NCBI RefSeq assembly: GCF_024346995.1
Contig: NZ_AP024887.1
Location: 1,426,001-1,490,000, forward strand
DNA: 64,000 nt
DNA from: Vibrio palustris
GTDB lineage: Bacteria > Pseudomonadota > Gammaproteobacteria > Enterobacterales > Vibrionaceae
Direction: 5' to 3'
Shown: positions 46,102 through 47,290 of the stretch, in pieces
How the letters are laid out: every line of letters begins with the position of its first letter
Position numbering within the stretch: the first letter of the stretch is position 1
The notes under the pieces: generated by a model
What the model was told of the DNA's origin: nothing
Databases searched by the model: none
The model's input: only the letters and a program-made list of their open reading frames with translations
Position numbers and translations under genes: made by a program

Positions 46102-46445
46102 GTTGTACTCTCTTCGATTTTACAGGTAGCTAAGCCTAACTTATCGCCCCAAAAAACGATAGCCTCTAACACAACCTCATCACATTTATAGCCTAAAATC
46201 TGCTCAAGCGTCCACGTAACTGGTCTCATCTATCGTCGTTGTGAAGTGATAACAAGGGTCAGTTCGTTAAATAACGTGCTCTCAATTGCAAACCATTGTC
46301 AGTTTCTGGTCATAGGTATTGTTTTTTTCATACCAGACCAGATATAAAGAGAGTAGCAAAGAGCTAGTAACTTTCGCGAGTGACAGTCATGAATCCTTTT
46401 CGTGCCCCTTCTGACTCAAACAGCGTTATAGCTTAAGGAGAGTAT
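46102..46445. other. 344-bp divergent region between tpm and relV
   Basis: Holds the promoters of both genes. No long open frame with coding character. TAAGGAG before 46446 is the relV ribosome-binding site. Confidence 0.5.
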
Positions 46446-47225
46446 ATGAACCTCTTATTGCGTACCACGGCACTCATGCTGTTAATTTTAAGCCGTGCCC
46501 CCGCATTCGCGGCCGCCATGCCCGTTGATACGAATGTCGAAGACAATCGCAGTACGGAATCTCAAAGTGAAATCAGCTCTGAAGTTTTTAAACACAGCTT
46601 AAGTGGGTTGTATGGCATTCAATCTATATCATCAACACCACTACAGCCTTATCGTGATTTTGATGTGTTGTACAGTAAATCTCATCAAGCGCAGCACGAG
46701 CTCACAAACTTATGCAAAAAAACCGCTATGCTCACAGGCACTACCCCATTCACTTGTGGCGTCAAATCTCGTGAAAGAGCACAACAAAAAATCGCCGCTG
46801 ACTTTGCCGGTCAAAATGAGCGTATCACCGATTTAGCTCGTGCCACAATCGTGGCTAACGATGTACCGAGTTTGGTTCAAGCATATGAAATGTTACGTCG
46901 CTCAGCCACCATAGTGAAAGTAAAAAATCGCTTCAAAAATCCCACGCCATCAGGTTATCGAGACTTAAATATATTGGTTAGACTGCCTAAAACACAGTTA
47001 ATCGCAGAAGTGCAGTTACATTTAAAAGGGATAGAGAAAGTGAAAAGCGGCGAAGAACATCGCATTTATGAAAATATTCAAACATTAGAACGTACTGCTG
47101 CGGCTCAGCAACGAGATCTCACAGAGTTAGAACGGGCAAAAATTGAACAGTTACGAGCCCAAGCAAAGAACTTATATCAAAACGCATGGCATCCATACAT
47201 TACCACCCAGCTTCAAGCTGCGTAA
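46446..47225 (+). CDS. relV: Small alarmone synthetase RelV-like, with an N-terminal signal-like segment
   Basis: A 259-residue RelA/SpoT-type synthetase. The nucleotide-binding core has RITDLARATI, KVKNRFKNPTPSGYRDLNI (split) and EVQLHLKG. Residues I recall as essential in V. cholerae RelV (K107, D129, R132, L150, E188) fall at exactly the same numbers here, which supports both the identity and the start codon. The neighbourhood (purT, tpm, ihfA, pheT) also fits. RelV makes (p)ppGpp from GTP/GDP and ATP in the cytoplasm. Yet residues 1-24 look like a Sec signal peptide: Arg6, a hydrophobic core and AxA before 25. This is listed as a finding. Confidence 0.85.
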   Translation: MNLLLRTTALMLLILSRAPAFAAAMPVDTNVEDNRSTESQSEISSEVFKHSLSGLYGIQSISSTPLQPYRDFDVLYSKSHQAQHELTNLCKKTAMLTGTTPFTCGVKSRERAQQKIAADFAGQNERITDLARATIVANDVPSLVQAYEMLRRSATIVKVKNRFKNPTPSGYRDLNILVRLPKTQLIAEVQLHLKGIEKVKSGEEHRIYENIQTLERTAAAQQRDLTELERAKIEQLRAQAKNLYQNAWHPYITTQLQAA

Positions 47226-47259: not shown

Positions 47260-47290
47260 AAAGACCACGCCTAAAAGCGTGGTCTTTCTT
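47260..47290. terminator. Terminator between relV and ihfA
   Basis: AAAGACCACGC / GCGTGGTCTTT stem with a short CTAAAA loop and T run. It serves the two convergent genes. Confidence 0.88.

Follow-up and report, generated by a model that had tools for sequence, protein, structure and literature searches.

A constrained Sec-type signal peptide, with a basic residue past its core, predicted on the Vibrio palustris (p)ppGpp synthetase RelV

We propose that RelV of Vibrio palustris, encoded in a window of 64,000 nucleotides (the whole stretch of DNA analyzed here, contig NZ_AP024887.1 of assembly GCF_024346995.1), is very probably an exported small (p)ppGpp synthetase, with a cleavable Sec signal at residues 1-23 and a mature SYNTH enzyme residing in the periplasm. 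In this scenario, residues 1-23 would direct the chain through the inner membrane, probably during its translation, and would be cleaved off, so that the mature enzyme would come to lie in the periplasm and use a substrate found there. Export was also the main interpretation of the preliminary description of this DNA, and it is in all likelihood right. The export reading of Vibrio RelV has already been published: Ahmad et al. (mBio, Nov 2025, PMC12691689) describe a signal on the Vibrio RelV proteins VP1295 and VC1224, name the class exported alarmone synthetases, and state that the signal was unacknowledged in previous work on RelV. Our analysis adds that the RelV signal varies less among homologues than the enzyme that follows it and that a conserved basic residue follows its hydrophobic core. 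The gene and the elements of its N-terminal region are the following:

46446..47225, + strand: relV, a small (p)ppGpp synthetase with a predicted N-terminal Sec-type signal peptide; 259 amino acids plus stop, ATG start
46435..46440, + strand: ribosome-binding site AAGGAG, with the ATG 5 bases downstream; read from the sequence, AGGAG over 90% conserved in 51 Vibrio-level homologues
46446..46514, + strand: predicted signal peptide, residues 1-23, MNLLLRTTALMLLILSRAPAFAA, with predicted cleavage after Ala22 or Ala23
46461..46463, + strand: Arg6, n-region charge; R in 63, K in 4 and H in 1 of 68 homologues
46494..46496, + strand: Arg17, basic residue lying after the hydrophobic core and ahead of the cleavage site; of 68 homologues, 63 have R here, 3 K, 1 Q and 1 G
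46515..46577, + strand: fast-evolving, probably disordered linker, residues 24-44; amino-acid entropy 1.82 (residues 24-47), pLDDT below 50 (residues 17-41)

The N terminus has the layout of a Sec signal, as had been noticed previously: Arg6 in the n-region, a core free of charge spanning residues 7-16, and AxA-type cleavage sites, among which our own reading favors A20-F21-A22. Residues 1-23 are accordingly predicted from the sequence to be a Sec-type signal peptide. By a simple, strict rule of our own (charged n-region, core and AxA), this layout is present in the real N terminus and arises in 18 of 20,000 shuffles of RelV, and the rule recovers it in 56 of 68 distinct homologues and misses it in 12. 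Alanine occupies position 22 in 63 of the 68. No homologue has a twin-arginine RR in its first 15 residues (one has KR), and without this motif the RelV signal is not a Tat signal. A lipobox cysteine after the core is likewise absent from the RelV of the window, where the first cysteine is C90. This set of 68 leaves out L051, L065/L079 (a broken copy in G201), L080, L081 and identical proteins.

The N terminus is alignable in all 68 distinct homologues. With the protein divided into five segments, amino-acid entropy in the 51 Vibrio-level sequences is lowest for residues 1-23 (0.59), followed by the catalytic residues 107-200 (0.73), residues 48-106 (0.93), residues 201-259 (1.12) and residues 24-47 (1.82). 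Third codon positions under the signal are free to vary: four-fold sites show 1.54 bits in residues 1-23 versus 1.68 in the rest (51 homologues; Mann-Whitney p = 0.08). We considered an RNA-level element beneath the signal and found no support for it, as the four-fold sites there are about as variable as elsewhere.

Mean pairwise identity was then compared between the signal and mature parts of exported proteins. In relV these values are 0.75 and 0.64 (n=27, same-genus genomes), and in the homologues of genus g289 they are 0.72 and 0.52 (13 of 14 fetched loci, L192 being left out and the first residue set to M in all rows). Signal and mature identities of the controls are 0.22 and 0.65 for an outer-membrane efflux protein (PF02321), 0.42 and 0.75 for a transglycosylase (PF13406), 0.27 and 0.51 for a SIMPL protein (PF04402), 0.36 and 0.49 for a DUF2884 protein (PF11101), 0.69 and 0.71 for DsbA (n=24 loci from 27 genomes searched), and 0.53 and 0.82 for TolB (n=22, with 5 of 27 rows omitted for an unrecognized start). 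The first four were picked from 137 reciprocal-match pairs obtained with a signal detector that also caught many cytoplasmic proteins; control starts were chosen for best alignment with the reference, and the controls omit L227 and L317 (internal stops) and a split copy in G227. Only in relV, one of the seven proteins, is the signal more conserved than the mature part. DsbA comes near, and we dropped the notion of a uniquely conserved RelV signal on account of its almost equal value. The DsbA signal of E. coli is co-translational (PMC5539426). As a rule, signals change faster in evolution than the mature parts they precede; in Actinobacteria the Ka/Ks of signals has been reported to be 2-7 times that of mature parts (PMC3729583).

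The basic residue past the core, which was not stressed in the preliminary description, is present as K or R at position 17 in 66 of the 68 homologues. The last eight signal residues contain no K or R in any of 24 E. coli MG1655 exported proteins, a control set drawn from 280 kb of annotated sequence on the basis of product names or well-known export, omitting lipoproteins, membrane proteins and cut genes, with cleavage sites placed by our own rule and some of them doubtful; the same is true of all 24 DsbA signals. Signals with a positively charged c-region are reported to be rejected by Sec, and a single lysine added there to the OmpA or DsbA signal lowers Sec export (PMC5539426). Judging from the sequences, Arg17 is thus unusual for a Sec signal. 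Outside the family, inspection by eye finds a basic residue past the core at every locus of genus g289 (14 of 14) and of family f184 (3 of 3); it is rare elsewhere (1 of 8 in f192, 0 of 2 in f190 and 0 of 2 in genus g309).

The enzyme that follows the signal comprises the following features:

46578..47198, + strand: SYNTH (RelA/SpoT synthetase) domain, residues 45-251; Pfam PF04607, model pLDDT mostly above 90, Foldseek
46764..46766, + strand: Lys107, invariant in 68 of 68 homologues
46830..46841, + strand: Asp129 to Arg132, with D129 and R132 each invariant in 68 of 68
46893..46895, + strand: Leu150, L in 61 of 68
47007..47009, + strand: Glu188, invariant in 68 of 68

A Pfam scan of the 259 residues up to an E-value of 1 returned RelA_SpoT (PF04607) as the sole match, at residues 106-207 (E 5.1e-6), with a score just above the curated cut-off (27.2 versus 27 bits); it detected neither HD, TGS or ACT domains nor a PAAR/Rhs or other delivery domain. 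K107, D129, R132, L150 and E188, which the preliminary description gives for V. cholerae RelV, do lie at these numbers in the protein of the window and in those of V. mimicus (L034) and V. metoecus (L035). We take these residues to matter for RelV activity; the catalytic residues are retained in the enzyme part. An AlphaFold2 model built with 38 homologues has a mean pLDDT of 86 and a pTM of 0.75, with pLDDT below 50 at residues 17-41 and above 90 over most of the SYNTH domain. The source genome has three RelA_SpoT matches, namely RelV and open frames of 747 and 709 amino acids, presumably RelA and SpoT. With a conserved disulfide in mind as a possible mark of the periplasm, we counted cysteines: the mature parts of the 68 homologues contain two in 38 cases, one in 19, none in 9 and three in 2. 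Where a cysteine lies at positions 42-47, C90 accompanies it in 36 of 38 homologues; V. palustris has C104 beside C90, and C104 occurs in 1 of 68.

Comparisons with known alarmone synthetases place RelV closest to VcRelV (VC1224) and VpEAS (VP1295), cluster B of PMC12691689, with which it shares the SYNTH domain, length, residue numbers and N-terminal Sec signal, as well as the absence of a visible adjacent immunity gene. It differs from them in being known from sequence alone and in having C104 beside C90. The RelP/RelQ small alarmone synthetases (6ewz, 6fgj, 5dec) display the same SYNTH fold in Foldseek searches; they are cytoplasmic and tetrameric, and are not known to carry a signal peptide. 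SaEAS of Streptomyces albidoflavus (PDB 8vx3; Foldseek E 2.9e-8) has both a signal peptide and the SYNTH fold in common with RelV, but comes from a Gram-positive organism, is only 18-22% identical over the aligned parts, and makes ppApp besides ppGpp (PMC12691689). The best match of RelV among solved structures, both by Foldseek (2.2e-9) and by sequence (E 1.1e-8), is the T6SS effector Tas1/Apk1 (PDB 6ox6), which shares the SYNTH fold but, unlike RelV, is delivered by the T6SS with a Rhs/PAAR-type domain, is accompanied by an immunity gene, and makes ppApp (PMC12691689). Attack on other cells, one sense that had been suggested for export, is supported by nothing found here. A separate locus, L080 (G294:C12:529204-529632), codes for a Rhs-repeat protein (Pfam RHS) whose post-repeat part matches the relV query with 29% identity; it resembles a Tas1-like polymorphic effector, and its genome also has relV.

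In its genomic context, relV is adjoined by genes for a TPMT-type methyltransferase and an IHF/HU-type protein, both on the opposite strand, and no adjacent immunity gene is seen among the neighboring open reading frames of at least 60 amino acids. One further element lies downstream:

47260..47287, no strand assigned: inverted repeat AAAGACCACGC-CTAAAA-GCGTGGTCTTT, recognized by eye, between relV and the convergent IHF/HU-type gene

This repeat is probably a bidirectional terminator; a simple computational scan missed it, and the same scan returned no promoter-like sites. Both neighbors are present in 35 of 73 related loci, the methyltransferase alone in 17 and neither in 21, in a partly redundant set with flanks of often just 1.5 kb. 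An AGGA motif lies within the ribosome-binding site (46435-46440), and relV is up 2.8-fold in a stationary-phase V. cholerae csrA mutant (PMC7858070); CsrA may therefore bind there.

Searches for relV homologues matched 247 of 296 family genomes (E <= 1e-8), 78 of 394 genomes of the order (E <= 1e-5; 31 from its own family and 47 from other families), and 2 of 369 genomes of a class-wide sample, one being the source genome itself. The 49 family genomes with no match, together with broken copies, indicate that the gene apparently can be lost. Seemingly broken versions are seen in V. aestivus (L051), with an open frame of just 93 amino acids, and at G201:C1:1750982-1751749 (L065/L079), with in-frame stops. 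Within the genus of the source organism, the divergent L075 (G240:C1) has a longer post-signal linker and a G at position 17 instead of a basic residue. In genus g8, tandem relV pairs 0.3-0.35 kb apart occur in G097 (L063 and L077), G037 (L064 and L076) and G022 (L071 and L078), with signal-like N termini on both copies, and many other g8 genomes have two relV matches. Beyond the family, signal-like N termini were recognized by eye in 29 of 30 loci, taken one per genome from 30 of the 47 genomes, a few of them needing a non-ATG start codon. The exception, L218 (G840:C32), is a distant relative with a 420-residue frame and a lipoprotein-like LSGCAAD near its N terminus, and is perhaps a lipid-anchored synthetase. 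Another distant relative, L081 (G315:C260), has an N-terminal hydrophobic segment with no obvious cleavage site and is perhaps membrane-anchored.

Published experiments bear on the same question. Expressed in E. coli, signal-less VpEAS of V. parahaemolyticus produces ppGpp and is toxic, and signal-less VcRelV of V. cholerae also inhibits growth, whereas full-length VpEAS in E. coli and full-length VcRelV in V. cholerae leave growth unaffected; (p)ppGpp synthesis is published for VpEAS and, via earlier work, for VcRelV, and Vibrio and Shewanella sequences share one signal-bearing cluster (PMC12691689). That source grades the location of VpEAS as "likely" and infers location in Vibrio; the string "fractionat" is absent from its main text, and a search of the paper by word finds no mention of disulfides, cysteines, internal or alternative starts, or alternative translation. 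Among the open-access matches listed, PMC12691689 is the only paper combining RelV, signal peptide and alarmone; those since 2024 on RelV with periplasm or ppGpp are the same paper and a preprint that deletes relV and, in the part considered here, is silent on location; and none concerns conditional export of an alarmone synthetase. Of the three options initially raised for this N terminus, export is best supported, and it is published for the Vibrio enzyme on the strength of signal prediction together with the toxicity of the signal-less form (PMC12691689); tethering is less likely, and a mis-assigned start is refuted at the comparative level.

An unlikely alternative holds that the signal is tuned such that export is conditional, making RelV a sensor of failing protein export. 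In growing cells RelV would leave the cytoplasm; under glucose or fatty-acid starvation, energy or membrane supply would fall, export would slow, and the precursor remaining inside would make ppGpp. Such a switch would reinforce itself, because SRP targeting is itself inhibited by (p)ppGpp, which binds to Ffh and FtsY (PMC8881573). It would accommodate the sequence-specific constraint on the signal, the basic residue after the core (66/68 homologues, 14/14 g289 and 3/3 f184 loci) with the reduced Sec routing caused by a c-region lysine in the OmpA and DsbA signals (PMC5539426), the harmlessness of full-length and toxicity of signal-less enzymes (PMC12691689), and the ppGpp attributed to RelV in the two starvations (PMC3089054, PMC7552824). 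The same absence of a growth effect of full-length VpEAS and VcRelV also tells against it, since any cytoplasmic leakage during growth must then be small. Moreover, 7 of 8 f192, 2 of 2 f190 and 2 of 2 g309 loci lack the basic residue. The DsbA signal is almost as conserved (0.69 vs 0.71), and we know of no export-gating role for it.

A quite improbable alternative is that the N terminus stays uncleaved, its hydrophobic segment holding RelV against the membrane on the cytoplasmic side or inhibiting the enzyme, with no export at all. The published toxicity contrast is by itself no proof of export, and the signal is conserved as sequence, beyond mere character, which such a role could accommodate. 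The distance between Arg6 and Arg17 cuts both ways: a core of just 10 uncharged residues is compatible with an uncleaved segment, but this shortness, together with the conservation of the AxA-type sites (A22 in 63/68), makes simple membrane tethering less likely. Against an uncleaved N terminus also stand the fast-evolving linker at 24-47, the low confidence of the AlphaFold2 model at residues 1-20 (pLDDT 54 and 53), which lends no support to packing, and the exported relative SaEAS, which was recovered from the medium, seemingly with the signal removed (PMC12691689).

Finally, that the true protein starts downstream, leaving the apparent signal untranslated, is next to impossible: an in-frame ATG does occur at codon 25, after the signal, in the relV of the window, but methionine is found at column 25 in 1 of 68 homologues and at column 24 in 6, the first possible start past residue 18 falls anywhere between codons 20 and 176, and the upstream ribosome-binding site and ATG are conserved (51 Vibrio-level sequences) along with protein-level constraint on residues 1-23 amid free synonymous change, which together refute it at the comparative level. 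We also considered that an internal start might yield an additional form located in the cytoplasm, and rejected this, as neither the methionine at column 25 nor any other start is conserved.

The favored reading, an exported RelV, leaves the oddity of an enzyme that needs GTP and ATP and yet is exported. According to a review and a subsequent article by the discoverers of RelV, this enzyme makes ppGpp when cells are starved of glucose or fatty acids (PMC3089054, PMC7552824), and therefore either the enzyme is cytoplasmic or substrate and product cross the membrane. Published work on RelV is thus in conflict, the genetics placing ppGpp synthesis inside the cell and the signal peptide sending the enzyme out. 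The starvation genetics suggests that some enzyme has access to cytoplasmic GTP/ATP; a fully exported RelV does not easily explain this ppGpp, and an export-gated one would, by a chain of inferred steps. In its boldest form, to which we attach a low probability, RelV would be a sentinel of protein export: a hyperconserved, deliberately marginal Sec signal would keep a potent synthetase out of the cytoplasm until export fails. On failure of membrane energy or lipid supply, export of RelV would be the first to fail, ppGpp would slow the SRP pathway further, and the stringent response would lock on. If true, this would explain how one gene provides both an exported enzyme and a third intracellular source of ppGpp in V. 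cholerae. The conserved basic residue and the constrained signal offer a handle on whether RelV export is complete or conditional.
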